Origin: a virus
Length of the DNA: 52,579 bases
IMG/VR virus record: IMGVR_UViG_3300030329_003894
Location: 1-52,579 of that record
Direction: 5' to 3' (one strand)
Shown here one piece after another: positions 2,683 to 30,306 of the stretch. The notes under the pieces are model-generated. The model saw only the letters and a program-made list of their open reading frames with translations. It ran no database searches and was not told the DNA's origin. Made by a program: the position numbers and the translations under genes. Position 1 is the stretch's first letter, and each line of letters starts with the position of its first letter.

Positions 2683-2920
2683 GTAGTTGAGGGTAATACT
2701 GAAAGGTTGTTAGCTGTTATATTTATGATATAAGAGAAGACTTCTGAGTAGGATATTACCCGCTTCTACGATAACAATTAAATGGGTAAATAGTACAATT
2801 AGCTATTGAAATATATAGAAAATTATTAAATGAGCGACTCTAAGTATCAAGACAGCTTCCGTCAAAGGTTAAGCCAATATACTTTCAGTCTAAAATGCTC
2901 AATAAATCTATTTACCCATT
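2683..2920 (+). ncRNA. Candidate structured RNA in an early intergenic space
   Basis: Two helical domains fill the 272-nt gap. The first pairs 2691-2698 (gggtaata) with 2754-2761, with an outer 2683-2686/2766-2769 helix and an inner hairpin (ttatat/atataa). The second pairs 2781-2793 (aatgggtaaatag) exactly with 2908-2920. Inside it are 2831-2835/2897-2901, 2836-2839/2887-2890, 2842-2847/2879-2884 and a small hairpin 2851-2853/2861-2863. Its end lies close before the ribosome site of the gene at 2944, so it may act in cis as a leader. I see no coding potential here. Confidence 0.5.
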
Positions 2921-2943
2921 AACATTAAAAAGAGAGGTGTATA

Positions 2944-3240
2944 GTGAAAAAGTCAGATATGTTTTATTCAATATTAGCGGTAGTATTATTAATTGCTATT
3001 GCATATTTATCAGTAAAGGTAGAAATTGTTGAAAAAGTTAGTGAAGTAATCAGATGGGAAGAACCTGATACTTTAAAAGTTGAACCTGATTTAAATCATT
3101 TACCATTTGATGAAACATTTAAATGGTGGAGAACTCAATTAGGCCCGTGTGGTTTATTTGAATGGAATGATGATTTATATATAACTTTATATACAGAAGA
3201 GAATTTTGAAGATTGTATAAGGTTAGTCAGTAATGAATAG
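2944..3240 (+). CDS. Single-pass membrane early protein, unknown
   Basis: The start is a GTG at 2944 behind gagagg. The 98-residue product has an N-terminal hydrophobic segment (about residues 7-25, FYSILAVVLLIAIAYLSVKV) after two Lys and a Ser, then a soluble acidic domain with Trp-rich and Cys-containing stretches (FKWWRTQLGPCGLFEW ... ENFEDC). It may be inner-membrane anchored or exported. No family recognised. The next small gene starts inside its last codons (8-nt overlap), so the two are probably translated together. Confidence 0.75.
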   Translation: MKKSDMFYSILAVVLLIAIAYLSVKVEIVEKVSEVIRWEEPDTLKVEPDLNHLPFDETFKWWRTQLGPCGLFEWNDDLYITLYTEENFEDCIRLVSNE

Positions 3241-3373
3241 TTTTATCCCAAGGTGGACAAGAATGCAATTTATACAATGGGCTAAAAAAAGGTGGCCTAA
3301 CACCTCATTCAGTAAAATGCGGAAAAAGCAACTAATCGCAATTTATTGTAATACTAAAAATAGGTTAGACTAA
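3233..3373 (+). CDS. 46-residue basic early protein
   Basis: The ATG at 3233 overlaps the previous gene's stop (ATGAATAG), and the gene ends with TAA at 3371-3373. The product begins MNSFIPRWTRMQFIQWAKKR and is very basic (about a quarter Lys/Arg) with four Trp or Phe near the start, a composition compatible with nucleic-acid binding. There is no strong ribosome site of its own, so translational coupling is likely. It could be a chance reading frame, but the fit between two non-coding spaces and the overlap favour a real gene. Confidence 0.55.
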   Translation: MNSFIPRWTRMQFIQWAKKRWPNTSFSKMRKKQLIAIYCNTKNRLD

Positions 3374-3389
3374 ATGAAGTCTATTTATC

Positions 3390-3582
3390 TGTAGTCGGGT
3401 ATTATCCTCCTTACCCAAAAGGATATCATCCGTATTCTTGTCCCGATACTCGACTACAAAACTTTAAACTATGTACCTCATAGTAAATGGTGATGGGATT
3501 CCCATTATAAAGATATTGACAGGCGAGTAACCATACAGGCATTAATTCCCTGTATAAATTCTAACGAGGGTCAAGCCACCAT
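3390..3582 (+). ncRNA. Candidate structured RNA before the ubiquitin-like cassette
   Basis: The gap before the Ubl gene holds several helices. Bases 3390-3403 pair with 3445-3458 over 14 positions including two G-U pairs, around an inner tatcc/ggata hairpin. A short hairpin actatg/catagt follows near 3469-3485. A multi-branched unit is closed by 3487-3492/3577-3582. It contains 3493-3497/3501-3505, 3516-3520/3570-3574 and 3533-3539/3549-3555. No gene is visible. A cis-acting leader controlling the cassette is the simplest idea; an independent RNA is the alternative. Confidence 0.5.
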
Positions 3583-3632
3583 AAATATTTAATAGTTAAC
3601 TAATAACAAAAAGAAAGGAGAAATTTGTTCAT

Positions 3633-3917
3633 ATGGCAAATACTTCAAATACTCAAACAACTGAACCAAGACAGTTGCAAATCCACGAAGGTGGTTCTTG
3701 GACAACAAAAACTGTAGTAGTAAATACTATAGGCGAACTAAGGGTAGAATTAGATATCCCTAATGATGTACAAATTAATATTAATGATACTTTGTACTCT
3801 GATAATACATCACCAATGCCATTAAATGGTACTAATGATGATGGAAGTACTCAACCACTATTTGTTGGATGGCAATCTAACAATAAAACAGGAGGTTGTG
3901 CTGTGGTATTATCATAA
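3633..3917 (+). CDS. Candidate ubiquitin-like (beta-grasp) modifier protein
   Basis: This 94-residue protein starts at ATG 3633, 12 nt after aaggag (3615-3620). After a polar N-terminal tail the pattern is strand (QLQIHEGG), strand (TKTVVVN), helix (IGELRVELDIP), strand (DVQININDTLY), then a turn and last strand (STQPLFVGWQSN). This reads like the ThiS/MoaD/ubiquitin fold, where 'vNg...dd..L.dGd' motifs precede the last strand. It ends NNKTGG at 83-88 followed by six residues, CAVVLS. A near-terminal Gly-Gly with a short removable tail is the classic precursor form of a modifier that a JAMM peptidase trims. Beside E2-like, JAMM and E1 genes the call is strong by context; by sequence alone it is moderate. 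Confidence 0.72.
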   Translation: MANTSNTQTTEPRQLQIHEGGSWTTKTVVVNTIGELRVELDIPNDVQININDTLYSDNTSPMPLNGTNDDGSTQPLFVGWQSNNKTGGCAVVLS

Positions 3918-3928
3918 ATAAATAAATT

Positions 3929-3999
3929 AAGGGGGACAATAACTGGTCCTATAAGTCCTATGATAGCCAAGAAGGCAAAGGAATATGTGAGTCCCCCTT
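3929..3999 (+). promoter_or_regulatory. Stable hairpin between the Ubl and E2-like genes
   Basis: A perfect 9-bp arm pair, aagggggac (3929-3937) and gtccccctt (3991-3999), closes a 53-nt loop that holds a smaller gcc/ggc hairpin. It lies 11 nt after the Ubl stop and 8 nt before the ribosome site of the next gene. There is no T-run, so it is unlikely to be a simple terminator. It could protect the upstream message or set a high Ubl to low E2-like expression ratio. Confidence 0.55.
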
Positions 4000-4021
4000 A
4001 TAATTAGACAGGAGTAAATAA

Positions 4022-5707
4022 ATGAGAGAATATAATTTTATAAATCCTAATATTGATAAATATAGTCAAGCACCTGTTATTATTGATGGTGATACTATTA
4101 GTTTATTAAATTGGGATTATCGAGCATTATATGATGGTAGTTATGAGGTAACACCGCAATTACCATTATTTCCATTAGATTTATTATTAGAAACAGTTAA
4201 TGGTAATGATTTAGCAGATGTCACAGCTTTAGATTTTACTAGAAGATTTAACGATAAGGTAGAACATTTTGCTAAATATTATGGTAAATACATGACAGAA
4301 ATAACAGGTAGTGATTATGTATTTGAAACAACTAAAAACTTTAATTGGAAAAGAGGTATATATGATGTTTTAAGAGCTTATGCTAATGAAGTATGTGGCT
4401 TTAATAAGAAAAATTCTGGTATTGACACATTTTTTAATAGAATAAGTCAAGGCAGATATACACTTAATAATATTCATACTCAACTTTCTCGAATTGAAGA
4501 TTTGAAAAGAGAATGTAAAAGAAGAGTTGGTAGTGTTGTAGAAAATGCAGATGAAGTTGTTGAAGGATTTAAACAACAATTGAATAATATTAAAGAAAAT
4601 ACTGCTTTAGCTCTTAGTATGACTTCTAAATTTCAAATATATCATGGCATTAATCTAACTGACCTTAATCCTAATCCTCCATTTGATGGATTCTTAGACC
4701 TTACAGTTTATACTATAGTTATAGTTGAACCTAATAATATGAATCTAATTAAATCAAATGGTGTCAATTTAGGTGTAGTACCTGTGCCTAAAGCATATCT
4801 TGTATTTAAAAGACCTTTAACTAAAGTTTTATTAAATAATGTTAAAGGTAGTGATATACGATTTAAAGCATCTGTTGCAGGTAGTAAGCATCCATACATT
4901 TCAACTACAACATTTAACAATTTAGACATACATTCAACTCGAAATGACAATACAGTAGGTCCAAGTTTTGTACCATGGTCATCTTCATTATGTTTATCGG
5001 CTTTTGCTGATAATATATTAAATGCATTGCAAAGGAATGATTATGTGCAATTTGTAATGAGTTTAAATGCATGGAACAATACTTATAATGTAGAAACAAC
5101 TAATCCTCATAATCCACCAGCTTCAGTTTTTTATCTTAATGGATTACCTAAAGATATTGATGAAGACCAAATACAAACATATAAATCATATACTGATTTT
5201 AATGAGGAAAGATGTTGGGATGCACAAATAAGTAATCATGGGCTTGCTGAAGATATCGATGAGTTGACAGGATATTTAAGGGATGAAAGTAATTTAAATT
5301 ATTATGAATATGGGGATTATGTAGTTACTTCATGCAATAAAAGACAATGTCCATTGCGAGAAAGATGTATTAAATTCAATAAATATCAAGAATTTCTTGA
5401 AATTGAAGATATAATAGAAAAAATAGAATCTATAGTTGGTTATGTCATTGGTGAAAAATTACAAGATGTAGATTTTAAAAATTATTATAGTGAATTTGAT
5501 GCATATAATGAATTTGCTTATAACTTTAAACATCATTTTAATTCTTATATTATGAATAACAGTTCTATGTACTCTCAATTATTAGATTGGAAATATTGGG
5601 ATAAAGTAGAACAGAATGATGAATTTATAGAAGCATGTCAAAATGCGGATACTAAAGATTTGGCTAGAGCAGTTCAAGCTTGGACACAATCAATTAACTC
5701 ACAATAA
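4022..5707 (+). CDS. Candidate E2-like ubiquitin-conjugating protein (561 residues)
   Basis: The ATG at 4022 lies 7 nt after acaggag. Residues 223-360 carry features seen in prokaryotic E2-like domains: strands (LDLTVYTIVIVEP, KAYLVFKRP), then HPYI at 290-293, then about 30 residues later a cysteine in a hydrophobic motif, SSLCLSAF (C324), followed by helices and LNAWNNTYN near 348-356. In bacterial E2 families a His-Pro motif precedes a catalytic Cys in the same way. The first ~200 residues are helical and of unknown role. A second Cys cluster (C438, C443, C449) may bind zinc. It lies between the Ubl and the JAMM/E1 genes, the expected place for an E2. The residue match is read by eye; it could instead be an unrelated large early protein. 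Confidence 0.55.
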   Translation: MREYNFINPNIDKYSQAPVIIDGDTISLLNWDYRALYDGSYEVTPQLPLFPLDLLLETVNGNDLADVTALDFTRRFNDKVEHFAKYYGKYMTEITGSDYVFETTKNFNWKRGIYDVLRAYANEVCGFNKKNSGIDTFFNRISQGRYTLNNIHTQLSRIEDLKRECKRRVGSVVENADEVVEGFKQQLNNIKENTALALSMTSKFQIYHGINLTDLNPNPPFDGFLDLTVYTIVIVEPNNMNLIKSNGVNLGVVPVPKAYLVFKRPLTKVLLNNVKGSDIRFKASVAGSKHPYISTTTFNNLDIHSTRNDNTVGPSFVPWSSSLCLSAFADNILNALQRNDYVQFVMSLNAWNNTYNVETTNPHNPPASVFYLNGLPKDIDEDQIQTYKSYTDFNEERCWDAQISNHGLAEDIDELTGYLRDESNLNYYEYGDYVVTSCNKRQCPLRERCIKFNKYQEFLEIEDIIEKIESIVGYVIGEKLQDVDFKNYYSEFDAYNEFAYNFKHHFNSYIMNNSSMYSQLLDWKYWDKVEQNDEFIEACQNADTKDLARAVQAWTQSINSQ

Positions 5708-5719
5708 AGGAGGCCTTAA

Positions 5720-6718
5720 ATGGCAGAAGCAAAAGAATCAAAGAGAAGATTTATAATCTCTGAGAAAGATTGGAATACTATGCAACAATATGCCAGAATA
5801 TCTTATGATAAAGATAAAAACGAGATATCTGGTATTACTTGTTTGAAAAAAGTAACTCATCCAACATCAGGTGAATCAGTATGGCAATTATTTGACCCAG
5901 TTATTCTTAAACAAGAGAATACAGGAACAACTACTGAATTAGATGGTGATGCATTAAGAGATTTTTATATTAAAGCTGGCATGAAATATGGCAAAGATAT
6001 AAGATTCTGTTGGTGGCATTCTCATCATACTATGAATGCATTTTGGAGTGGAACTGATATTAATGAAATTAAAGAATGGAAAAATGATTCTTGGTCATTA
6101 GCATTAGTAATTAACCTATTTCATGAATATAAATTAAATGTTCATGTTTGGGACCCAATAGAATATAGTGAAGATGTTAGACTTGAAGTTCTAAGAAATG
6201 TTCCTAAAGCTACAGCAAAACAGCTTAAAGAATATGATGAACTATGTGATAGTCCAGCACAAATACAAACTATTGGAACACCTCAGCCATGGTATCGTAA
6301 TAATAATATAAATCAAGCAAATATATGGGACCATGCAAGGAAACTATCTAATCAGGTAGCTAAACCCTTAGACCCATTAGCTAGCGATGATAAATTATTA
6401 TGGGCTACACATGATAATGCTCTTCATTACTCTGAATTAATTGATTTTGTTATTGAAGAAATCAATGATATGATGACAGAATATGCCTTAGGCAAGAAAG
6501 ATTATAAGGAATATACTGAATTTGTTAAAATAGTTAATGACAGATTAAAAGTGCGAGATGCAAGAATGAAAATAAAGAAAATTGCTAAGGGTAAGTTACT
6601 TGAAGCAACAGGAACTATGGAAGCTGAAGACCATATTATTTTCAATGATGATACGACTAAAGAAATATATAGTCAAGCACAAATACAATCAGGAGGGTGG
6701 CATTATTATGGGCATTAA
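5720..6718 (+). CDS. JAMM/MPN+ family metalloprotease (deubiquitinase-like)
   Basis: The start ATG at 5720 follows a perfect aaaggagg. The N-terminal ~150 residues are a JAB/MPN domain with the complete JAMM motif: Glu at 35 (NEISGI), then HSHHTMNAFWSGTD at 100-113, that is H100-x-H102, seven residues, S110-x-x-D113. These are the zinc ligands and catalytic Glu/Ser of isopeptidases that cut ubiquitin-like proteins from targets and mature their C-termini. A helical domain of ~180 residues follows with no recognised motif. The gene sits 12 nt after the E2-like gene and overlaps the E1 gene by 11 nt. In this context it should trim the Ubl after its Gly-Gly and may remove it from targets. Tail-assembly JAB proteases exist in phages, but those are late genes. 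Confidence 0.88.
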   Translation: MAEAKESKRRFIISEKDWNTMQQYARISYDKDKNEISGITCLKKVTHPTSGESVWQLFDPVILKQENTGTTTELDGDALRDFYIKAGMKYGKDIRFCWWHSHHTMNAFWSGTDINEIKEWKNDSWSLALVINLFHEYKLNVHVWDPIEYSEDVRLEVLRNVPKATAKQLKEYDELCDSPAQIQTIGTPQPWYRNNNINQANIWDHARKLSNQVAKPLDPLASDDKLLWATHDNALHYSELIDFVIEEINDMMTEYALGKKDYKEYTEFVKIVNDRLKVRDARMKIKKIAKGKLLEATGTMEAEDHIIFNDDTTKEIYSQAQIQSGGWHYYGH

Positions 6719-7376
6719 TATGAGAAGTGAAGGTTTAATCAATAACCTTAATGAATTTACTTTCCATATATTAGGCTGTGGGGCTATTGGTAGTTCCGCA
6801 GCCAATCAATTAGTAAGAGCTGGTGCAACCAATTTCTTATTATATGATATGGATATTGTAAATACAGAAAACTTAGGTGTATCTCAATATTTGGATGAAC
6901 ATATTGGTAAACCTAAGGTAGAAGCTTTAAGTAATTATTTACAATCTATTAATGATGAAGTTGATATTATATGTTTTCATGAAAAATATGATATGTTTAG
7001 ATATCAACATAATCAAGATATAGTTATTTTAGGCTTTGATAGCATGGAATCAAGAAAAGAAGCTGTGCTAGATATTTGTCGCGATAAAATGCAAAAGCCA
7101 TTTATGTTAATAGATGGCAGAATGGGTGGAGAACATTACCAACAATATGTATTTACTGATGTAACATTGCCTAAATACATGAAAACTTGGTATAGTGATG
7201 AAGATGGAGACCCAGAACCATGTAATATTAAAGCGACAACATATTGTTCGAATATGGCAGGAGCATTTATAGTTAATGCAATAAGAAAGGTCTTAACACA
7301 GAGTCCTTACGAGAGGGAATTGTCATTTAATTTTCCTCATATGACACTGCAAAAAAAGACTTGTTTCCAAGCCTGA
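6708..7376 (+). CDS. ThiF/MoeB-type E1-like activating enzyme
   Basis: The ATG at 6708 lies 10 nt after aggaggg and inside the last codons of the JAMM gene; an earlier in-frame start would overlap far into that gene and has no ribosome site. The 222-residue product is a Rossmann adenylation domain: GCGAIGS at 23-29 (nucleotide loop), an acidic strand end YDMDIVNTENLG (46-57), a conserved Lys pair in HIGKPKVEAL, and ILGFDSMESR (97-106). Cys172 or Cys180 (EPCNIKATTYCSN) could form the thioester. It has no added ubiquitin-fold domain, so it is E1-like in the bacterial style. It should adenylate the Ubl C-terminus and pass it to the E2-like protein. A role in cofactor sulfur transfer is less likely without other cofactor genes. 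Confidence 0.85.
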   Translation: MGINMRSEGLINNLNEFTFHILGCGAIGSSAANQLVRAGATNFLLYDMDIVNTENLGVSQYLDEHIGKPKVEALSNYLQSINDEVDIICFHEKYDMFRYQHNQDIVILGFDSMESRKEAVLDICRDKMQKPFMLIDGRMGGEHYQQYVFTDVTLPKYMKTWYSDEDGDPEPCNIKATTYCSNMAGAFIVNAIRKVLTQSPYERELSFNFPHMTLQKKTCFQA

Positions 7377-7450: not shown

Positions 7451-8122
7451 ATGGCACTAAAGAAAGTAAAGAGGAAAGTTGTCTCTACTAATCCTAGTAC
7501 ACTTCTATTATATGGAGCTCCCAAAGTAGGTAAAACTACTATGTTATCTGTCTTAGATGATTGTTTAATCATTGATACAGAAAAAGGTAGCCGTATGATT
7601 GAAGGATACATACAAGAGGTTAATAGTAGAGAAGAACTTATTAATACTCTTATAGAGATAAAAGAAAGTAAAGATGTAAGCTATAAATATATTGCTATAG
7701 ATACTATAGATAAAGTAGCTGAATGGGCTGAAAGACAAGTATGCAAAGAAGAAGGTGTTGCAGCAATTGGAGATTTAGCATTTGGCAAAGGTTATGGTAT
7801 GGTTAGAGAGAAAGTATCTAGAACACTATCAGCTTTTAAAGAAGTAGCAGAGCATCTTATTATAATTGGACATAGAAAAGTAGCATATGCAGTAACAGAA
7901 GGTAATCCAATAGTTATACCTGAATCAATTGATTTGACAGGTAAGCTTAAGAATGTAATTATGGCTGGCTGTGATGCAATTGGATATGTCTATCGTAACG
8001 AAGATGAATTAATGGTTTCATTTAAAGCAAATGATGCTATTGAAGCAGGAAGTAGATGTCCTCATCTTAAAGGTAAAGAAGTTAAATTCGAATGGAAGAA
8101 TATATATAAGGAGAATAAATAA
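7451..8122 (+). CDS. Sak4-like RecA-fold ATPase (single-strand annealing/recombination)
   Basis: This 223-residue NTPase has a Walker A loop GAPKVGKT at 22-29, a following acidic strand (CLIIDTEKGS), a Walker B strand YIAIDT at 80-84, and a late strand LIIIGHRKVAY. The layout and size match the phage Sak4 family, RecA-like ATPases that work with a phage ssDNA-binding protein in annealing and replication. The next gene encodes such a candidate protein and starts on the shared A of TAATG, so the two are translationally coupled. It acts in the cytoplasm at replication forks or breaks. I am confident of the ATPase fold and fairly sure of the family. Confidence 0.85.
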   Translation: MALKKVKRKVVSTNPSTLLLYGAPKVGKTTMLSVLDDCLIIDTEKGSRMIEGYIQEVNSREELINTLIEIKESKDVSYKYIAIDTIDKVAEWAERQVCKEEGVAAIGDLAFGKGYGMVREKVSRTLSAFKEVAEHLIIIGHRKVAYAVTEGNPIVIPESIDLTGKLKNVIMAGCDAIGYVYRNEDELMVSFKANDAIEAGSRCPHLKGKEVKFEWKNIYKENK

Positions 8123-8706
8123 TGGCAATTTTCAAGCCTGAAGCTAAAAGCACTCCTTCTGGATTCTTAGGACCTATTGAAGTAGGTATTATAGGATTTA
8201 CAGATAGAAGTGGAGAATATGATTGGTCAGATATTTTTATTGAAGTAGAATTATCTGTTAAAAATAGTGAATACTCTAACAAAATGTCCATACTAGGTCG
8301 ATTAGATAAGGATGCTAATGGTGATATAGTAGGCGGTTCAGTTTTAAATAGAATGTACAAATTCTTTGAAGCTATAGGATGTAATGCTGGGCTAAATGTT
8401 AAGGGTAAATGGGAAGATGAGCACGGTAATGAAATAGAAAACATTGGTGATTATCTTAATCAAAGATTTACCACAAAAGGTGAAGAATATCAAGCTTACG
8501 CTTATAAGAAAAAGCCAAAGCCTGGTAAGAAAGTTTATACAGAAATTTATCCAAGATTATATCCTCTTGGAGAATCAGCTACTAAGCAATTATTAGATGA
8601 TGTTAAGTGGCTTAAAGGTAAAGGTGTTATCAAAGAAGCAGATGCAAGTGATATGCCACAACAATCTGATACACCTTTAGCAGATAATGCATTAAACAAT
8701 CTATGA
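8122..8706 (+). CDS. Probable single-stranded DNA-binding protein
   Basis: The 194-residue protein has a beta-rich first half (GPIEVGIIGFTDRSG, SDIFIEVELSV) and a lysine-rich middle (AYKKKPKPGKKV). A disordered polar C-terminal tail ends in hydrophobic LNNL. This design, an OB-like core and a flexible tail, is usual for phage ssDNA-binding proteins that follow Sak4 ATPases. No motif is diagnostic, so the call rests on the layout and on neighbours: coupled start with the ATPase upstream and a 4-nt overlap with the primase-helicase downstream. Confidence 0.62.
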   Translation: MAIFKPEAKSTPSGFLGPIEVGIIGFTDRSGEYDWSDIFIEVELSVKNSEYSNKMSILGRLDKDANGDIVGGSVLNRMYKFFEAIGCNAGLNVKGKWEDEHGNEIENIGDYLNQRFTTKGEEYQAYAYKKKPKPGKKVYTEIYPRLYPLGESATKQLLDDVKWLKGKGVIKEADASDMPQQSDTPLADNALNNL

Positions 8707-10469
8707 TATATGTAGAGATAGCAGTAGACTCTCCTAGAAATAGGGGTATATTGGTATTAAAGTCTGACCTTGCTAGGTATATACCTAAAGATGGGAAAGC
8801 TTTATATCGCTCTGTTTATCTTTATAATGAAGAAGCAAAGCAATTTGCTGATTCTAAAGGCTCTTTAAAAGGCTATCATGGAGAACGTGGAATTGACAAT
8901 GTCCTCATAGATATAGACAGAAAAGATAATTCAGATGAGTATACACTAAAGAAACTTAGAGAAACTCTATTACACTTAAATGTACTTGAAGTTGCTGATG
9001 AAAGCATTCAATGTTATTTTAGTGGAACTGGATATCATATCGTCATAACTAATGAAGTATTCAACTTCCAACCTTCTGATAGCCTGCCTTACCAAGTAAA
9101 GCAAACAATGTCTAGCTTGTTTGAAAACATTGATACTAGTATTTATATGAGAAGCGGAATATATAGAGTAGCACATACAAAGAATCAGAAAACTGGTCTT
9201 TACAAAATACCTATAACTCTATTTGAAGCTAATAATGCTAATATTGATGAAATACATGATTTTGCATCTGACCCTAGATTAGAATATCCATATGCACTAT
9301 TAAGTGGAGATAATGAACTAGAAGGTTATTTATGCCTAGAAACTCCAAAAATAGCCCAATTTGGGAAAGTTATGGAGCCAACGAAGGTAGTACCATGTGT
9401 TCAAACAATGTTGCGAAATGGGCCACAAGAGGGCTCTAGACATAATACTGCTCTTAGAATAGCAAGTCATTTTAAAAGGCACGGCATACCTAGTGAATAT
9501 GCAAAAGTAGCCTTATTACATTGGAATAATAATACTTTAAATGAACAGCAGATGATAGAAAAGACAGAATCTGTATACAATGGAAACTATAATTATGGAT
9601 GCCAAGATGTATTAATGAAAAAGTATTGTCAAACTAAATGTATGTATTTTAAAAACAAGGATTATCACATAAATGTGAAGGATTCTGATGAACTGCAAAA
9701 AGACTTTGAAGAGAGATTAACAACTAATTTCAAAGGCAGAACTATTCCATTGGCAGAAATGTTTGGCTTAGATAAATATGATACACAAATATATCCAGGA
9801 GAGTTAGTTACAATATTTGGGCCAACAGGTTCAAATAAAACAACACTTGCTCAAAATTTGGCATTAGGAGTTGATTTTAAAAACGATAAAATTAATCCAA
9901 CATGGCAAATTCCAACATTGTTTTTGTCCTTAGAATTATCAGCATGGTATATGCACAGAAGACATCTTCAAATAGTTTCGGGGTTATCAAAAGAAGAAGT
10001 TAATGAAGATTATAAAGAAATCTATAATAAACATGCAGATGAATTAAGGCATTTACAAATACAAACAATATCACCAACTTTAAATTCTATTCAAGATAAA
10101 ATAAAACAATTAAATCCATCAGTAGTAATAGTGGATTATATTGATTTAGTAGAAACTCCAAGAGATGTTAAAGGAGAATACGAACAAATTAAGTTTGTTT
10201 CTCATAGTCTGTCAAATCTTGCAGTTAATCTTGATGTAATAATAATTCAAATATCTCAGGTAAGTAGAGAATACAGTAGAAATGATATATTAGATTTATA
10301 TGCTGGAAAGGGCTCAGGAGCCATAGAAAATGCTTCGCGAAAAGTGATAGGATTAAATGGACAAGCTAACACAAATGTAAAGCATATACATATGTACAAA
10401 AATACTGATGGAGAATTATTTGATGTTGAAGTAGAATGGCGTGATAGTTTTAGATTGAGGAGAGTATAA
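8703..10469 (+). CDS. Primase-helicase: archaeo-eukaryotic primase fused to DnaB-type helicase
   Basis: The N-terminal half has the archaeo-eukaryotic primase signature: metal-binding LIDID at 68-72, nucleotide-binding SGTGYHI at 107-113, and an Arg-rich strand region RSGIYRVAHTKNQKTG at 150-165. Cysteines at 232, 300, 309 and 313 fit a metal or Fe-S subdomain like that of PriL-type primases. The C-terminal half is a RecA-fold helicase: GPTGSNKT Walker A at 373-380, LFLSLELS, and VVIVDYIDLV Walker B. One chain would unwind and prime the phage fork, like T7 gp4 but with a different primase. ATG at 8703 overlaps the previous stop by 4 nt. No DNA polymerase gene accompanies it. Confidence 0.87.
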   Translation: MIYVEIAVDSPRNRGILVLKSDLARYIPKDGKALYRSVYLYNEEAKQFADSKGSLKGYHGERGIDNVLIDIDRKDNSDEYTLKKLRETLLHLNVLEVADESIQCYFSGTGYHIVITNEVFNFQPSDSLPYQVKQTMSSLFENIDTSIYMRSGIYRVAHTKNQKTGLYKIPITLFEANNANIDEIHDFASDPRLEYPYALLSGDNELEGYLCLETPKIAQFGKVMEPTKVVPCVQTMLRNGPQEGSRHNTALRIASHFKRHGIPSEYAKVALLHWNNNTLNEQQMIEKTESVYNGNYNYGCQDVLMKKYCQTKCMYFKNKDYHINVKDSDELQKDFEERLTTNFKGRTIPLAEMFGLDKYDTQIYPGELVTIFGPTGSNKTTLAQNLALGVDFKNDKINPTWQIPTLFLSLELSAWYMHRRHLQIVSGLSKEEVNEDYKEIYNKHADELRHLQIQTISPTLNSIQDKIKQLNPSVVIVDYIDLVETPRDVKGEYEQIKFVSHSLSNLAVNLDVIIIQISQVSREYSRNDILDLYAGKGSGAIENASRKVIGLNGQANTNVKHIHMYKNTDGELFDVEVEWRDSFRLRRV

Positions 10470-15098: not shown

Positions 15099-16483
15099 TT
15101 CATTAATCCTTTAAATAATAATGATGGGTTTTTTCTTAAACTCATAGCCTTTGCTGCTATTTGAGCTAATCTACCTAATTTATCTTTTCTAATATCTGTT
15201 AATTTTGGAGAAGCTGGTTCTGGTCCATAAATTCTAGCAGTTTTTGATGCTGCTTGCGTTATTCTAGATTTCTTTGGAGATATGTCATACTCTTTTCTAG
15301 GCTTAGTCTCTGGTCTACGAGTTTTAAAGGTCCAATCAGCTCTATTTAAAACTGGTTGTGCAAACAACCTTTCTACACCTTTTGTAATCTTACCCGTACC
15401 TAAGTCATGAACATCTCTCATACCACCTCGTATTGGAAGATATGTACCGCCTTTTCCATTTTTATTAGGAATCCAAGCAAAATCCATGTATTGCCAATGT
15501 TGCCCAGCAACATATTCTAAAGCTTTAGACCATCCCATTCTGTTAATTGGAACAAATCCTAATCTAAAGGTCCTAGTAACAGTACCATCCTTCAATCGAT
15601 GCCTAAGGCCTTCTCCAGGTTTTATTTCAGTTAATTTCATATCACCTACAACTTCACCTCTGGGATTAACTGGCAACGATAATCCATTAATTACTTGCCT
15701 TGGGAATTTTCTAACTTCTGTACCATAATCATATTCAGCATTCATTATAGCTTTTTTAACATTAGATATTGCATTTCTACTACCGCTTGCAAATACTTTT
15801 TTAATACGACTTATTCTAGGGTCATTTTTTGCTTTATTTTTAAAATCATCTTGCTGCTCTTCTCCATGTATTAATGTCTCAATTTCTCTCCCAACATATG
15901 GTTTCATAGATGCATCTATCCTTGCCATTTGCGGCTCTACAATAGTTTTTACTCTTACATCACCCTTGCCCATTGGAATCATTGAAGGGTCCTTGCCAAC
16001 AGCAACTTTAGTATTGCCAACTAGTAATCTTCTTTTTTTCAACGTATTTTCTGCATTTTTTAAATCCTGCTCTTTTTGGATTCGTTCTCTTTCAGTGAAA
16101 ATTCCAAATTTATCATCTTTTCTTAATTCTTTTTTCTGGTCTTTAATTCTAGATTCCATAGCTTTCAATTCTAAAGATTCTCCAGTAACTAAACTATGCC
16201 CCAATTGATACATCCCACCTCTTACACTATAACCACCAGCTTGTAATGCATTATGTAATGCTTGAGATATCTTACCACCCTTAGCATATTGTTTAATAGG
16301 GCTACGAACTCCATATCCTTGAGTATCAACAACAGAAGATAATAGAGATTGTGCACCTTTTCCAAGGGCATAGCCACCTAAAGCAGCTCCCCCAGCTGTA
16401 TATGCAGCATACTTCCCAAAATTTTGGGCAGAATTTAACTCCTCATCTGAGGGGGTCATCGCTTCTATTAATTCATCTGCCAT
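15095..16483 (-). CDS. Virion-associated protein of 462 residues, likely internal/ejected
   Basis: ATG 16483 shares its last base with the stop of the giant protein gene (TAATG). Near the N-terminus there is a Gly/Ala-rich hydrophobic stretch (YAAYTAGGAALGGYALGKGA, about 26-45), like those of ejection proteins that cross membranes. A charged coiled region (105-150) and a long basic C-terminal region rich in Lys and Arg follow. It probably enters the cell or sits in the head with the polymerase-like protein encoded directly upstream. Function is inferred from position and composition only. Confidence 0.7.
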   Translation of the reverse strand: MADELIEAMTPSDEELNSAQNFGKYAAYTAGGAALGGYALGKGAQSLLSSVVDTQGYGVRSPIKQYAKGGKISQALHNALQAGGYSVRGGMYQLGHSLVTGESLELKAMESRIKDQKKELRKDDKFGIFTERERIQKEQDLKNAENTLKKRRLLVGNTKVAVGKDPSMIPMGKGDVRVKTIVEPQMARIDASMKPYVGREIETLIHGEEQQDDFKNKAKNDPRISRIKKVFASGSRNAISNVKKAIMNAEYDYGTEVRKFPRQVINGLSLPVNPRGEVVGDMKLTEIKPGEGLRHRLKDGTVTRTFRLGFVPINRMGWSKALEYVAGQHWQYMDFAWIPNKNGKGGTYLPIRGGMRDVHDLGTGKITKGVERLFAQPVLNRADWTFKTRRPETKPRKEYDISPKKSRITQAASKTARIYGPEPASPKLTDIRKDKLGRLAQIAAKAMSLRKNPSLLFKGLMK

Positions 16484-19400
16484 TAATAAAATTCTCCAGG
16501 TGTAGGCACTTTTCTTTCAGGTCCTTCTCTAAGGTCTTTAGATGCCTTTGTTAAACCGATTGCAGGAACTCCTGTCCATTTATCAATAATTCCTAATGGA
16601 TTTTCTATAATATTATTAGGTCCATGCAAATCTCTAATTATTCTTCCAAATGGGAACATTGTATATACATAATAGTTAGAAACACGCTCCCAATCGTCCT
16701 CTAATATAGCTCTCATAGAAGAAATAGGCAATCTTAAAATAGGAGGAGTAACTGTCTGTAATGGAGCTAATGCTCTAGGCCATTGTCCAAAGAAAGCTCT
16801 ATTACGCTCTTTCTCATCTCCGAATATCCAATCAGCGGTATCTTGAACCCAATTCCAAGGAGCTGGCATAGCAGTTTCAAATAAGGAATAAGCAAAAGCA
16901 TTACCTAAAGCAAATACAAATAAGTCCATTTGCATTATTCTAGCAGCTCTTTTAGCTTCCTCTCCTTTAAAACCATATATTCTAGCTTGTCGTAAAGCTT
17001 CTTTTCTAAATCTAACAGCATTCCATCCCCATAATTGGAAACGAGTCATTACTTTACCTAATGCAGTCCTAGCAAACATAGGTCTATATGGAGCAGAATA
17101 TAAAAACTGTGTAGCTTTAACACCTTTCTTAGCTAATTCAATAAGAATAGGATGGTCAAAATCTTTAATAGCTCCACCAAATTTATTATACCAATGTAAA
17201 TAATGTGCCATAAAAGCATCTCTTCTTAATGCTCTCTCAGGGACAGACATAAATTTAGCTGCTAATTCTGCAACAGGCTTAGTTATTTCTCTTTTCTTAG
17301 CTAAGTCAAGTACAGATTCTTGTGATAACTCAGGGTCCTTTGAAAGCTTTCTAGCTACATCTTGAATAAATTGCTTATTCTTACTTGTTTGATACTCTTT
17401 AGCTAATCCATACTCAGCCATTAAATATTCTGGCAATACTCCATGTTTAACAACAAATTCATCGATTGCTTGCAAAGAGTTCCATTTAGGATTAATAGCT
17501 GATAATTTTTTAGGATTTCTTGCTGTTAGCCAGGTATTAAAACCTACTGATTGAATAGTATGCATAGTACCACCAAAGATATTATTAACCACCGATTTAG
17601 GATGTGCTAATAATGATGCTAATTCAAACTTAGCTTCTAAATTACTCCAGTTCCTTATCTGGAATAAATCTATTCCTCTTAAATTCTCTGGTAGGTCTTT
17701 CTTAATTAATCCAAGCTTTTCGCCTATTTTATTAACTCTATTTTTAACTCTATTGTCAGCCCACCAAGCATATGGAGTACCTTTCATCTTCATCTTAGGG
17801 TCATTTAATACTTGCTCAGGAACAACATCAGGATTACCCATAGCTCCTTGCACATATAATTTCAAAAATGTAGACCAAGCTTCAGTTTGCTCTTTCCCCA
17901 TCTTTTTAAACATAGTACTATTAAAATCATTAATTGTATTTCTTCCAAATATCTGTGACATTTGTCTGAAGTAATTGCCTACTAATCCCTTGACATAATT
18001 ATTAGCTACTTGTCTATCTAGGGAATAGCCTGGCATATGAGCATTTCTAGAGAAAAGTGGACCAGCCTTCTTTAAACTTCTAAACCAATTAATACTTTCT
18101 TGTTTTTCTTGTTTTTTGGCAGATATGTTAGTTAATACTTCAAAATGTTTCCATTCATCTAAATCCTGAAAATTCCATTCACCTGTTAATGCATGATGTC
18201 TATAGGTTAAGCTTGTTAATATCTCTTCCATTTGAGCTTTAGGTAGCTCAGCCTTATTTAAAAAATCAGTATATCTTTTTAATGATTCTAATGCTGTTTT
18301 TCTATCAAAATGCATATGAGGCCAATATCTTTCAAAATCTATTGGTTCTGTTGCCCTAGTTTCAGATTGCATTAATTCTTTTTTTACTTTAGGGTCTTTA
18401 GTCATTTCAATCATCATTGATTTAGCAACTTTTCTTATCCCATCTACACCAAATTCCAATGGAAACCCTTTGCCTGCTTCATAACTTTTCTTTAGATGTC
18501 TGACAAATGCAACATGGTCTATTCTAGGACTTGTTTGTGCTTTGTCATACCATCCTATTCTAAATGGTTCTAATGATGCTTGTATAACTCCCTTAGGTTT
18601 ACCAGTGACTTTATTAATAGGCACATCACCAGCTATAACTTCTGTGAACATTTTTCTAAAGAAATTGGTATATGCATCATTAATAACTTTAATAACTTCT
18701 TCACCCCTCATTCTTTTTTGCTCACCTTTAATATTAACAGTATATATCTTATCCTTAATAGATTTGTCATAATCATATTTCTTTAAGACATTTTGATATA
18801 GCTCATTATATGTTTGAGAGTCGGCATAATTAATAGCAGATTCTTTATCTTGCCTAGACAAAAGGTATTTAGTGTTGGGGTGTTCTCTAATTGCTACTGC
18901 AATCTCGTGAAGTGCATCTGCCCCTTTAATATTATCTAAAAACAATAACTCTTCACCTAATTTCTTTTCATATTCTTCGCCTTTACCAATAGCAGCATCA
19001 TTAGCTCTACCAATCCAATGAGTTAATTCATCCATATACTGTGTTGGTTTAACTACCTTACCTTTTTTAAATATACCTTCAGGGGTCAAAAACATACCTT
19101 CTTTTTGCATTAGAACAATTTCATCTTTCATTAATTCTCTATTAATTGTTTCAGGGAATTGCAAATAATGTCTTTGTGATAATTTAGTAATTTTACCACT
19201 TTTAAGTCTTTGCCATAAAGTTCCTCTTTTAATATCATCAAACCAATTACTCATTGCCATCCAATCAGCTTTATTCATTAAACTTATATCTTTCTCAAGT
19301 AATCCCCTCACTAATAAATGGAAATTTTCAGTAACTTTATTATTTTCTGTCTTTAAATGAGTTAGGATATTATCAATAGCGGCTTTAGTTTCCTTAGATA

Positions 19401-22400
19401 CTTCTACCTTTTTCTTAGGTTTTTTAACACTTTCCCAACCAGAGGTAGAAGTTAAGAATTTATCCATATCTCCAGTAAAGTATTCAGGTAGTCCTTGTTC
19501 TATATTCTCTTGTTTTTGTGGCTCTTCTACAAGTCTTTGTCCTAATTTCCTAACATCTTCAGGGGCTCTTTGTTTAGAAATCTCTGTATAAACATCGCCC
19601 ATTTCTTTTAAAAATTCTATTCTACTATCTCTATTGACAGATTGACTATTATAACCTAGCCTAGATAATGAAGTTTTAGATGCTTCCTGCCTCATAGAGC
19701 TTATCCATCTATAAGCTACTTCATCTAAGGGTATCTTCTTTTTATTAATAAGAGCTTCAAAATTCTGTATTGCTTTTAAATCACCACGATTTAATGAACC
19801 TAACATAAGAACATCAATTAAATCTTGTTGATTCTTAGTATTGTATGTATTCTTTTTAACCTTTGCAATCTTGGCATCTATAGTAGCTTGGTCCATTACA
19901 GCAGTAGTTGGCTCAGTACTTTTAACCTCCCAACTAAATCCAGGTGATTTTAATCCATGTTTTTTTAAGAATGCTGCAATATCCAACCCCTGGTCACCTA
20001 CAGATTCTTGTAAGTCAGGGTCATTTCTTAATCTTCTTTTACTCATTAAATAACTATTTCTTTTCCAACTATCTACAGCTGCAACAATTCTTTTAATATT
20101 CTTTCGCTCATTAGCATCCATTTTATCAATGATTTCTCTAACTTTTTTAACGGTAACTAATGTAGTTAAATCTTTCATAAGAAATGCACTAGCTTTATCT
20201 CTTATATCTCTTAAAACTTGTATTCTTTCATTTTTCCAATTAAAATTCTTAAGAGTTTTAAAAGCACCTCGTTTAGTTTTAACTTTAAATTCTCTCTGAG
20301 TTTTTCTTAATAATTCTGGTGTATGCTGAATAGTAGTATTATGTATAACTTGTTTAAATAAATTATTATCACTAGCAACAATATCTAAATCAGTATTATT
20401 TAATAGCGATAATCTTCTTTTATTTTTCCCTGAGCCTGTTGTACCTGCATTTAATGTCACATCCATATAATGGTGATAGTCCATTTTAAAAGACTTTCTG
20501 TCTAATAATTCAAGCAAATCATCGTATTTATTAACAGACTCTTTGTAGTTTCTATATAAAGCTTCTACCTTGTCTACATCTACTCTTTTCAAAGGACCAT
20601 CTGAATAGTCTAATTCATGTAACATCCTAGCAATTTTTGGAGTTACTGTATTAATATCAGCTTCATTTTCAAACATTAATTTAGAAGTCATTTCATGTCG
20701 TTCTTCCATTGTAAAATTACGATTCTTTAAATAATCTCTACCATAATAAGCTGAATTTGCTTTTTCCATCATACCAAAAATACCTTGTTGCTTTAACTGG
20801 TATATATCATTATTATTAAATTTATCAATGAACTCATTTGGATTCTTAACCTCTTTTCCATTTTTAGTTACTGAATCTACATTAAAATGAGCTTTATACA
20901 TTTGTTTCCACCATTCTGCATAATTTTTCATCCCAGGATAGTCCATAGGGTCAGAAGAAAGTCCTACCATAGCCCTAGTAAGCTTACGTATATAATCTTT
21001 CTCTTTTGGGCTTGTTTTAGGCGAAATTTTAACATCGTATACATCTTCTATCCATTTTCCTTTAACTTTTTTATTAGTTTTAAAGCTAAAAGTATCAGAA
21101 CCTCTATCTACTAATACATTATAAACAGATGCCATTATTTGTTTAGGACTAATTGCTGCACCACTAAGTAAGTTTCTACCATCTGTAGCTGCATGAGACA
21201 TCTCCATTCTAGTATTAGGAGCATAAGCTGCAGATATATCATCTATATCATATTTTCTTGTATCTGGTTTTAAAAGACTCTTAATTATTTCTTTATCTTT
21301 ATTTTCAGTAATAATAATATTTCCATCTTTATCCTTCTCGTAATATTCTTCTTTATTAGCCTCATAAGCATCTTTCCAAGTCTTTTTAAAGCCACCTTTA
21401 CCACCCATGTATACATAAGCCGCATCACCATCAAGGTCAGCACCACCTAAGGCTTTCATAGCTCTAGAATGCAATAAAATCCCATGACCTTTTCTACCTG
21501 TAAAACCTGCAAATTCTAATATATGAGTGCCTGAGATAGAGTCCATTGGAACTCTCATTACAGCAGACCTAAATACTTCTTTTAATTCAGCCTTAGCTAC
21601 AGCGTCTTTTGTTCTTAGATACATTTCATACAGCTCTCCTAAAGACCTATTACCAAAAGATTCTGTCTCTACTCTCATTTGGCGATAAGCTTCATCTAAA
21701 AAGAAAAGCTTATCATTAGTATCTAATTCTTTTAATCGAGGGTTGACACCATCCATATCTTCTCTTAAATATCTATCATATGGTCTCATTCTAGCAGATA
21801 TAGAATTATTAATTTTTGGCTTTGTAGCTTTATTAATTACCCAACTAGACAGAACTTTCATTCTATAGTCATTAACAAAATTATGGACAAAGATAGCCAT
21901 TTGATTTTCTGGCCTATTGCTTAGTTTAGCAGCCACTCTACCATCTTGAATCATTTGACTACTAAGAGAATTAAACTCTTCTAATTCTTTAATTTCTGCT
22001 TTATATGTTTCAATATCCATATCACCATTTTCAAATTCTTCAGCAAGGGAATCTTTTCTTTTCTCTAACATAATTTCATATGCTTTACGAGCAAATAATT
22101 GATTGCCTTCAAGTTTCATAGAAGCAACTATTCTACCTAAACCCATATTTTCCCAATCTAATTTCTCTAATTCTCTCATTAATTCTTTGTCAGATGCTGT
22201 AGGTAGTTTATCTTCATATGCCCTTAATGCATCATTTGCCTTTTTAGTGCCCTTGTATTTAGGTTCTAACATAGTATCAAAGATATCATTGACTATATCA
22301 TTCATATGTATACCATCTTTAGTTTTAGGTGCAAATGCTAGTGATTCTACTAAACTATTTAATAATTGCTTTTTAAGGGATTGTTTTTGTAACATTTCAG

Positions 22401-25400
22401 GACCTTGTCTAACACTATAATTAAACTTTATAGCACTAGGGTCTAATTCATAAATAGCATTAGGATTCTCTGTAATCAAATCCCTAGTACCTCTTTGCTT
22501 AGCTGCTGTTTCTTGTATGATAAAATGTGTATCAGCTAATCTCATATCTTCACTTTGTTTTTTACCCGCAGCATGCATCATATACTTACCTAATAAAGCA
22601 CCATGCTTAGCATCAGGGGCAATGATAAATGATTTATTTTGCCCAGAAACAGGATGACCAGCATCCTTATTTAAAGCATCTATTACATCATCTCTTACTA
22701 TAATAGCACCATCCATCATTTCTTCCATCTCAGTATTCTTTAAATTAGCAAGTTTTTGATTTTTAAGCTTTTTACCAGGCTCTACATCTACATCATTATC
22801 CATAACAAAATTAAAATTACCATTTTTTGTTAAACCTAATTTTCGTTTAGTTGTAGGGTCTACATAGTTTTGATAAAATTCTTTATCACCACCATAAGAA
22901 TCTGTCATCCATATTTGACTTCTTTTATTCCAATTCTTTACATTGTTAATAAATCCTTTTCCTAACATCATCTTCATATTAGCATCATTAAATTCTAATC
23001 CATTTTTAGCTAAATTCCATAAGACATTTGATTTAAAAGCCTTATCAAAGTAATCTTTTGCTTGTTGCTTAGTCATAAAATTATCACCTGCAGCAAATTT
23101 CTTACTAAACTTTTCAACAAAATCATCTCTTAATTTATCAATTTTATATCTTCTAAATCTTTTAGTTATCTGATTATAAGAATGTTTATCTACATCAGGA
23201 TGCCATCTCATAAATATAAGCTTATCATTATCTCCTTTTCCCCCGAAATAATAAAAGCCACCATTTTCTTCTTTCCCCCAATGCTTTAAACTTCTAGATA
23301 ATAATTCATTAAAAGCTTTTTCTCCATATTTTTGAGAACCTCTAAATCTAGAAGGAGTTAATTCTCTATGTCTACCATTAAATCCTTCTACTACTATATT
23401 ATCTAAAACAGCAAAAGCCCTCTCATCCTTACCTGTTAAAGCACGCCAGATATCATCTACTAGTTTCATTGGTTCAAGAGTTCTTTTTACATTACCTGCT
23501 AAATTACTTTGATAAGTTTCATCCATCATAGTAATTTGCTTACCATCAGAGGTAAATTGAATTAATTTTCTGTCATTATTTCTACGACTAATCCATTGAC
23601 GAGCGAAGTTTTCAGCCTCATCTCTTTGCTCTTTATTATATTCTTTACTTTTAGGATTTAATTCTTTTATATCAAATTCTTTAATTATTTCTTTTAAAAA
23701 CTCTTGAGACCTATTAACTTTAGAGCCTGGATTATGATACTTAGGAAAGATTTCAGCAATCCTATCCATATCTTGTATCATTTTAGATTCTTTAATTGGA
23801 CCAACTAACCCCTTATAAGAACCTATATTTTTCATATATTTCTTAACAAATTTAAATGGATTAGTGCCTATTTCTTTTTCAGATGTAGGTATACTACCTG
23901 TATCAGCATCTTCAACATTCTTTAAGCCACTATCATCTTTTTCTGTTTGTTTACCTTGTGCAATGGCCTCTTTAGATAATTGCTCGGGAAAATGTTGTTC
24001 AAATAATTCAGCAAATGCTTTTTTAGATTCATTTTTATTAGTAGCATCTGCAATAAATCCCATAGCCCTAGGAGGAGTCTCTGGATTTCTAGGAGCAAAA
24101 CCCTTAGCTGATGGTATATATCTATGCCATTGATTTTTTACATGCTCATATACATATACTGGCTTATTCATATTAATAGCCATTTGAGCAGCCCAGCCTG
24201 GAGCACCTTCTAATTGTTTATTAGTTTCTATTACTCTACCATCTTTTAATGTCATCTTCCTAAATTCGCCAGATAAGTATAAAGCATCTGCATTTTTAAC
24301 TACAAAATAATTCTTTCTGACCATATCTAGATTATCTCCAGTAGGTGTTTTGCCTAGCATATTACCAGCTCTAGTAATCTCTACATTAGCTTCTGCTAAT
24401 TCTTCTGGCTTCAATCCATGGGCTACACCAGGAAAGACTTTCTTTTTCATTTTAGCAGCTTCAGGCCTAGTAACCATATGTATATTAGCTATCTTATCTC
24501 TTCTTTTATGACCTTCTCTAGCAATAAATGATTCCACTCCACTTTGTCCAGAAGTAATAACAAAATGTTCAAATCCTGCTAATGCACCAGGTTTAAGCTT
24601 TATTTTTTTACCATCTGCTCCTGCTACTTGATAGTATTCACCAATATTATCAAGCATTTTAGCTGCTTTTTTAACATCTACTCCAGTAGCTTTTGCAAAG
24701 TCTAATACAGCTTGAGTATTCTCATCCATAGTTCCCCATCTAGACTTAAACATTTCTTTAGTAACAGATTGAACTTCTGGAGGTAGTTTTTTAAATTCAG
24801 GATGAAATTCAGGGTCTCTCATAACTAGAAGCTCTGCATTATCCTTAGCATCCTTTTCATATCTTTGCATAAATTTTTGAGCCTTAGCATATGTCCAAGG
24901 TCTCTCATTCCCACCAAACCACGCCCCCATAACATATTGATATACTTGCTCAGGAGTAGTAGCTCCTTGCATTGTACTAGGTAATCCCATAAATAATGAA
25001 CCAGCTAATGTTTTAGCAACCTTATTCCCTGCTTCATCACCCACATTAATAAAATTTCCAATACTTCTAAATACACCACCTGCCATACCGCCATGGGCAA
25101 ATGCAGACATCATTTCATCTACACCCCCTTGCCAAGAGGATACTGCCGAAGCTGTACCTAAATGGAATGCTCCTTCAGCTATATGCCTAGCTCTATTCCC
25201 AAGAATAAAGTCAGATGCTGTCTTTACAGCTGAATTTTTAGCTAATCTGCCTTGATTTAAAAAGGGTTTTACTGACTTCTTAGCAAAATCAGTTGCTACT
25301 TTGGCAGCAGCCATAGGAACGGATTTATCATTAAGACTTCTAGCTAATTTAGCTGCAGATACTAATGATTGTGCTTTAGTTAATTTAGCAGCTCCCATAA

Positions 25401-28980: not shown

Positions 28981-30306
28981 TTATTCTCCTGTTACTATTG
29001 TTGCTGGTAAAGCAGTTGCTTTTAAAATTATTGGTGGATAATGCGACCCTGTTGTTCTGTTTCTACCATGTGATATATAGGTACTAGAGCCACTGGCTAA
29101 TCCTGCTAAATAATATGTAGTATCTGTTCCAGCAGTAAGCCCAGTTACAGTAAATTTTATAGTACTAATACTATGGTCAGTTTCATCTATATATACAACT
29201 TGGTCAGCATCATATGTATGTTTTTCATCTAATTCTGCATAAGATGTTCCAGTTGATAATGAAAATTTAGCACCTTTAGATACACCTGTCATCCAAAAAG
29301 AGCATTCTATTTCTACATTACCACTTGGAGGTACTTTAAATTGTATAGATAAATCAGTTCCTTGTGCAGTTTGCATAACAGTCATAGAGCTAGAATTAAT
29401 TGTAATAGTAGCATGTCCTACAGTAGTACTGTCATTCATTATTTTAGTATATCCAAGCATCATCCCAGCATAAGCACTATTAGCAGCACTAAATTCAGTA
29501 CCTGCTTTCTTTGCTATGAAATTCCCACTATGAGAATCTAATGTTATACTAGCTCCAGAATCAACAACAAAATCATCAGCAATAATTTGGTCTAAACTAG
29601 ATATAGTTAAATCGCCACTAGAATAAGTGACATCAGACAAATCATTTAAGGCAGATACACTACTAGTACCTGCACCAATATCACTTCTAACTTCTGATGC
29701 GGAGCGACTTTCTAATCCATTTGCTGTAAAGCGAGCATATTCATCATCAGCAACTGAATTACTATCTATCTTAACTGCATTAGTATCAGCGATTCCAAAT
29801 GTTAAAGTTTCTTGACCTCCAATATATGTTAAAAGATTAACTCCCGTAACATATTTAACTTCTCCATTATCTGACATTAATATTTTATCAGTGTCAGAGC
29901 TTATTTCGCTTAAACTTCCAATGGTTAATTTAGAATATGTACTTAAATTACCTAACTTATCGTATAGTAATGCCTCATTTTTAATAGGTTTATTTCTATT
30001 GCTACGTAGGCCCTTAGATGGCTTATTCCCTTTGCTTAAAGGCACTAAATTGGCGTTTAAATCAACCTGATAGCCCATAGGTGTTTTAACAGCCAATAAA
30101 AATTCACCTTTATAATTTCTAGCAAGCATAGTAGAACCAACTGGACTCTCTCTTTTTCTAATAGGACTTTGTTTAGCTTCTAAATCAGGCTGCAAATCAT
30201 CTAATCTGTCATATATTTCTTTTAAAGCCTTATCAGTTATAGGTTCTCCAACTAGAGTTCTGAGAACTTTTGCTTTTGTCATTGTTCTTGGAGAATGTCG
30301 AGGCAT
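28981..30306 (-). CDS. Tail appendage/fibre-like protein, 441 residues
   Basis: ATG 30306 shares bases with the stop of the 2582-residue gene. The N-terminal ~110 residues are basic and polar. The remainder is a Ser/Thr/Asp-rich beta structure (TFGIADTNAVKIDSNSVADD; ASITLDSHSGNFIAKKAGTE) with a C-terminal beta domain (GLTAGTDTTYYLAGLASGSS). This is the usual look of phage fibres or head/tail spikes that bind the host surface. The name is based on composition and neighbours. Confidence 0.7.
   Translation of the reverse strand: MPRHSPRTMTKAKVLRTLVGEPITDKALKEIYDRLDDLQPDLEAKQSPIRKRESPVGSTMLARNYKGEFLLAVKTPMGYQVDLNANLVPLSKGNKPSKGLRSNRNKPIKNEALLYDKLGNLSTYSKLTIGSLSEISSDTDKILMSDNGEVKYVTGVNLLTYIGGQETLTFGIADTNAVKIDSNSVADDEYARFTANGLESRSASEVRSDIGAGTSSVSALNDLSDVTYSSGDLTISSLDQIIADDFVVDSGASITLDSHSGNFIAKKAGTEFSAANSAYAGMMLGYTKIMNDSTTVGHATITINSSSMTVMQTAQGTDLSIQFKVPPSGNVEIECSFWMTGVSKGAKFSLSTGTSYAELDEKHTYDADQVVYIDETDHSISTIKFTVTGLTAGTDTTYYLAGLASGSSTYISHGRNRTTGSHYPPIILKATALPATIVTGE

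Follow-up and report, generated by a model that had tools for sequence, protein, structure and literature searches.

Several bacterial systems are known in which ubiquitin-like (Ubl) proteins are attached to targets, and their use against phages has been reported (Jenson et al., cited in PMC10449767). Bil is an anti-phage Ubl conjugation operon. Its BilA consists of two consecutive Ubl domains, the E1 enzyme BilD combines an inactive and an active adenylation domain with a Cys domain of about 80 aa, and BilB carries a CEHH motif after the catalytic Cys (PMC11354881). In PRTRC operons, classified as type 6d, the E2 has no classical His upstream of the Cys, and a conserved His follows the Cys; moreover, the JAB protease carries an extra N-terminal domain, and an extra alpha-helical protein is encoded (Iyer 2006, PMC1779556). 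One PRTRC locus examined here carries a ParB-type gene. In type II CBASS and types 6a-6c, E1 and E2 are fused. Phage lambda TAPI and TAPK are a phage-encoded Ubl and JAB, located in a tail-assembly gene cluster without E1 or E2 (PMC1779556). Among open-access papers, searches combining phage, crAss or ThiF with ubiquitin revealed no description of a phage cassette.

The stretch of DNA analysed here, referred to as the window, comprises positions 1-52,579 of the IMG/VR virus record IMGVR_UViG_3300030329_003894 (52,579 nucleotides). At 3633-7376 on its plus strand lie four adjoining genes in the order Ubl-E2-JAMM-E1, and all four are preceded by a Shine–Dalgarno sequence. The features of this region are as follows.

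3633..3917, plus strand: Ubl, 94 aa, predicted single-domain beta-grasp protein with Lys85, Gly87-Gly88 and the 6-residue tail CAVVLS
3926..4005, plus strand: conserved structured RNA element in the gap between the Ubl and E2 genes, without an Rfam match
4022..5707, plus strand: E2-like protein, 561 aa, with H290-P291 and the catalytic-type Cys324; helical N-terminal region, predicted E2 core at about 182-375, and C-terminal region with Cys398, 438, 443 and 449
5720..6718, plus strand: JAMM/MPN+ metalloprotease, Rpn11-like, with E35, H100, H102, S110 and D113
6708..7376, plus strand: E1/ThiF-type adenylating enzyme, 222 aa, one domain, with GCGAIGS and Cys172 (codon 7221-7223)
7451..8122, plus strand: Sak4-like recombinase, the gene next after E1 (PHROG 124, E 5.4e-34)
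8703..10469, plus strand: primase-helicase (DnaB_C, 9.3e-18; PHROG 19 and 16345)

An earlier reading of the letters alone (the sequence-only reading) had proposed that a virus carries here the whole set of Ubl, E2-like, JAMM and E1 functions, and all four classes were indeed recovered. The four adjacent plus-strand genes lie where it had placed them, and the motifs it listed were confirmed: the near-C-terminal Gly-Gly of the small protein, HPYI (H290-P291-Y292-I293) and LCLS (L323-C324-L325-S326) in the large protein, the full set of JAMM residues, and GCGAIGS in the E1-like adenylation domain, which matches Pfam ThiF with an E-value of 3.4e-22. Its placement of the cassette directly before replication genes is borne out by the Sak4-like and primase-helicase genes. 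The E1 gene itself stands, but its listed start, TTG 6582, does not; the likely start is ATG 6708, preceded by the Shine–Dalgarno sequence AGGAGGG, which gives the protein of 222 aa and an 11-nt overlap with the JAMM gene. Considering the ThiF and JAMM profile matches together with the conserved Gly-Gly and catalytic residues, chance resemblance can be regarded as excluded for the cassette.

The likeness to PRTRC and Bil operons that had been pointed out earlier holds for gene content and fails for family membership, namely in the E2 motif, the number of Ubl domains and the E1 architecture. Bil also encodes a Ubl, an E2, a JAB protease and an E1, and the likeness to it is one of working analogy. 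In contrast to BilA, the window Ubl has one beta-grasp domain of 94 aa; the E1 has one adenylation domain of 222 aa, with a Cys at the position of ThiF C184, in place of the BilD arrangement; and positions +6, +8 and +13 from C324 of the E2 are D, I and Q rather than the residues of CEHH. Bil membership was rejected on these three points. PRTRC operons likewise hold Ub-like, E2-like, JAB and E1-like genes, with a single-domain ThiF-like E1. Membership in this group was also rejected, because the window E2 keeps the classical His (H290-P291 precede C324, with H in 41/58 and P in 55/58 aligned members) and because PRTRC models from NCBIfam stayed below their cut-off, the only match being PRTRC_ThiF at 25.6 bits versus a cut-off of 144.75. 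Unlike in CBASS, E1 and E2 are encoded by separate genes in the window and its relatives. A Gly-Gly Ubl, an E1, an E2 and a JAMM protein occur here as one unit, which is the composition of the Ubl conjugation class. In effect, by the definitions of PMC11354881 and PMC1779556, the cassette appears to work like Bil, PRTRC and CBASS without belonging to any of them.

The gene order was sought in viral metagenomes, as the sequence-only reading had suggested. Searching IMG/VR with a profile of the E1s from the window, crAss-like and Flavobacterium phages gave 289 related stretches, and 80 of these were retained; a search with the JAMM protein gave 93, with 80 likewise retained. Gene families were then called by applying iterated HMMs to the open reading frames in the fetched loci. 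The order Ubl-E2-JAMM-E1 recurs wherever the loci are long enough for it to be assessed: E2 is present in 92/92 loci that extend more than 2.5 kb beyond JAMM on its 5' side, and Ubl in 81/81 that extend more than 3.5 kb, although these counts include overlapping fetches of one contig, so that independent viruses are fewer than loci. Sak4 is the first recognised family downstream of E1 in 73 loci, and the primase-helicase takes this place in 64. In the loci examined, the cassette can thus be considered core rather than accessory. A tBLASTn search with the JAMM protein against isolate phages found nothing, and the marine clade that includes the window is therefore without a closely related cultured member among those phages. 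Searches based on terminase and capsid did not reveal the host.

The same four-gene order is also found in gut crAss-like phages and Flavobacterium phages, cultured ones such as crAss001 and DAC15 among them, where the genes are annotated as hypothetical, metalloprotease or ThiF. It occurs in Steigviridae of the Crassvirales (crAss001 gp79-gp76, DAC15, cr111_1 and cr128_1), beside primase and UDG genes, and in Flavobacterium phage FpV4, beside primase/UDG. The E1s of both groups match the marine E1 profile (9e-38). A Foldseek search of the window E2 model against viral predictions matched a cr128_1 protein of 435 aa (E 0.022, prob 0.98), which equals in length that phage's gene at the E2 position (435 aa). 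Direct hhalign comparison of marine and crAss E2 profiles was not significant (E 0.12), and that of the Ubl profiles was suggestive (E 0.0016). In the crAss Ubls the corresponding point mostly reads SGA instead of SGG and is followed by a long tail, and the E2 motif of the crAss-like and FpV4 loci is HSH...CLG as against HPYI...LCLS in the window. Additionally, crAss-like phages contain a fifth, uncharacterised gene between the E1 (ThiF) and UDG genes (7624-8436 of the crAss001 locus, gp75, and its equivalents), and in FpV4 an uncharacterised gene lies directly 3' of ThiF. In cr106_1, at 2687-3890 of the fetched locus, the Ubl gene is apparently interrupted, directly behind KKIKSGK, by a gene for an HNH endonuclease, which suggests an inserted homing element.

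Scanning GTDB contigs with the JAMM profile gave only three matches, all in metagenome bins: L155 (Deltaproteobacteria), L156 (Calditrichaeota) and L157 (Verrucomicrobia), whose loci may be chromosomal or phage. In L155 and L156 the order is again Ubl, E2, JAMM and E1, the Ubl being of the ThiS type, and in L155 an additional gene follows the Ubl; L157 has E2, JAMM and E1, without a clear Gly-Gly Ubl. The E2 motif of the bins is HPHIS..C(L/W)G, with a short spacing of 9-10 residues between HP and Cys.

The window Ubl ends in ...NNKTGGCAVVLS. In the alignment of IMG/VR relatives, Gly-Gly is the sole invariant feature (75/75 distinct Ubls), and it is followed by 0 to 31 residues, many Ubls having tails of 1-2 residues. 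The AlphaFold2 model (pLDDT 78.5) shows a beta-beta-alpha-beta-beta order, and its neighbours in a structural search, with Z about 6, are nearly all beta-grasp or ubiquitin-like domains, including those of ubiquitin and ISG15. The window Ubl on its own gave no usable match in the Pfam scan of window proteins; Pfam ThiS was matched by 20 of 49 relatives, the best at 1.9e-5. The sequence-only reading had staked its proposal beforehand on a beta-grasp fold in this protein, and that fold is the one predicted.

It had likewise depended on an E2-like fold in the large protein. The AlphaFold2 model of this protein (pLDDT 86.9, pTM 0.82) had no match in a whole-chain Foldseek search of the PDB. A second-look alignment (VIA-align) over residues of about 182-375 placed Ubc12, UBC9, the TSG101 UEV domain and the CBASS Cap2 E2 among its matches, with Z-scores of 3.5-4.9 that are weak and within the possible noise range. 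The Pfam scan of window proteins gave no usable match for the E2 alone, and that of 55 E2-like members matched no E2 family. Among 58 aligned members, all 58 keep Cys324, 55 keep Pro291 and 41 keep His290, the remaining 17 having F or Y at position 290. The four cysteines of the C-terminal part (398, 438, 443 and 449) are also highly conserved and possibly form a metal site.

A more convincing line to known E2 enzymes runs through the metagenome bins. The marine E2 profile, compared with the three bins, matched the E2 of L156 alone (E 1.9e-6); the reverse search with the bins' E2 profile matched no marine E2. The L155 E2 core aligns with human UBE2A (E 0.0046), HPHISQDGTPCLG being placed on HPNVYADGSICLD, and the L155 and L156 E2s can be aligned with each other over the core that matches UBE2A. 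Against the PDB, a profile of the L155, L156 and L157 E2s listed only E2s, none below 0.3, which is weaker than the L155 sequence alone. The bridge therefore leads from marine E2s to L156, then to L155, and finally to UBE2A. This bridge can be taken as a stronger case for E2 identity than the structural matches. The large protein is best described as having a predicted UBC-like core with the active-site Cys after an HPx motif, its structural matches being weak, and the E2-like assignment is retained.

For the JAMM protein of the window, the Pfam match to Prok-JAB is sub-threshold (E 0.0018), and the JAMM profile matches an archaeal Rpn11-like protein (4.9e-6). The E1 profile matches UBA6, UBA5 and ThiF. 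Among IMG/VR relatives, the catalytic residues of both enzymes are more than 90% conserved, and the equivalent of Cys172 is kept in crAss and Flavobacterium E1s. An E1 tree shows long branches to ThiF and PRTRC, its deep placement being unsure.

The cassette is probably a phage-encoded, reversible ubiquitin-like conjugation system. In such a system, JAMM would trim the Ubl tail where one is present, exposing Gly-Gly, after which E1 would adenylate the Ubl and then hold it as a thioester on Cys172. The Ubl would be handed to Cys324 of the E2, which would attach it to lysines of target proteins, while the Cys-rich C-terminal part of the E2 may bind metal and aid in the choice of target. Finally, JAMM would take the Ubl off the targets again. 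The most likely use of this system, proposed at somewhat less than an even chance, would be the modification of host proteins during takeover or counter-defence. A broader version is offered a little more tentatively still: the cassette might be a core set of several lineages (marine, Steigviridae and Flavobacterium) that modifies host proteins, with the E2 as its fast-evolving specificity part.

The targets might instead be the phage's own replication and repair proteins, the cassette then being a viral counterpart to the conjugation of SUMO or ubiquitin to replication factors. This reading would accord with the core status of the cassette in the loci examined and with its place beside replication and repair genes in three lineages, the neighbours being Sak4 and primase-helicase in marine phages, primase and UDG in crAss-like phages, and primase/UDG in FpV4. 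However, early genes, among which the cassette would be counted, often cluster merely for reasons of expression, and the E2 has a several-fold higher rate of evolution than the replication proteins, which is unexpected for partners. The rates were obtained from closer pairs, many of them mutually non-independent, because comparisons of the window with its nearest relatives are near saturation. All cassette genes are under purifying selection, with median dN/dS in close pairs of 0.32 for E2, 0.17 for JAMM, 0.14 for Ubl and 0.07 for E1, as compared with 0.06-0.09 for replication genes (0.06 for the primase-helicase). Within the E2, the fastest-evolving of the cassette genes, dN/dS is 0.37 in the core, 0.40 in the C-terminal part and 0.22 in the N-terminal part. 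This excess could stem from looser constraint, though the core evolves as fast as the C-terminal part; otherwise it lends mild support to a shifting target, which likely belongs to the host. Conjugation onto the phage's own proteins is considered somewhat less likely than the modification of host proteins.

A different chemistry, in which E1 thiocarboxylates the Ubl and JAMM only matures it, would make the cassette a sulfur-carrier or cofactor system, as in Qbs or ThiS-JAMM clusters. The ThiS matches of the Ubls, the 1-2-residue tails of many of them, and the best NCBIfam matches of the E1, which are ThiF/MoeB, agree with this possibility. Cys184 of E. coli ThiF is the counterpart of the E1 Cys172 (residue 169 of the sequence as aligned), a correspondence that fits either conjugation or sulfur-carrier chemistry. 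On the other hand, the CxxC metal pairs of ThiF are absent from the E1, no rhodanese or sulfurtransferase was found among the neighbouring genes scanned, and a conserved E2-like protein accompanies the other genes in every testable locus. Moreover, 17 Ubls end exactly in Gly-Gly, and JAMM is intact in 17/17 of those loci, where there is no tail to trim; JAMM is therefore probably more than a maturation enzyme, which suggests a role in deconjugation. A sulfur-carrier function is accordingly given a low probability.

It is about equally improbable that the cassette serves as a decoy or counter-system, in which the phage Ubl, E1 or JAMM would compete with or reverse conjugation by host Bil, CBASS or PRTRC systems. 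Bacterial Ubl conjugation does act against phages, and JAMM could remove host Ubls. Nevertheless, all four parts, the Gly-Gly and both catalytic cysteines are conserved, although a lone protease or decoy would need less, and the components are only distantly related to those of Bil or PRTRC. Finally, the view that only the JAMM-E1 pair is real, with Ubl and E2 misassigned, draws on the missing Pfam matches of the window Ubl and E2 alone and on the empty whole-chain Foldseek search, and it was rejected as very improbable, being contradicted by the Ubl fold, the ThiS matches, the bridge to UBE2A and the strictly kept Cys324.

If the broader version given above is correct, the cassette would provide viruses with ubiquitin-like signalling of their own, as opposed to the hijacking of a host system. 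Bacteria are known to use Ubl conjugation as a defence against phages, and here phages seem to carry a complete pathway; phages are not known to encode in full a kit for both attaching and removing such a tag. The combination of a classical HPx-Cys E2 with a minimal ThiF-type E1 would add a lineage to the evolution of ubiquitin systems. In cultured crAss-like and Flavobacterium phages the cassette is annotated as thiamine biosynthesis or metalloprotease, and since these phages carry it, viral Ubl use can be tested in laboratory phage-host pairs.

In the RNA element at 3926-4005, a stem closes the conserved core, AAYAACTGGTCC...AGGAATATGTGA; most positions of this stem keep standard pairs of several types (21 distinct arm pairs). 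A search of Rfam gave no match for it, and it is possibly a new RNA family. Searching IMG/VR for an exact core pattern gave 84 stretches, in which it lies at varied genome locations, and the element is therefore probably independent of the cassette. Elsewhere in the window, two very long open reading frames lie on the minus strand, at 16483-25713 (3076 aa) and 30306-38054 (2582 aa), and a strong terminator-like hairpin of 17 pairs is located at 1908-1947 on the plus strand, directly 3' of the small open reading frame 1578-1898.
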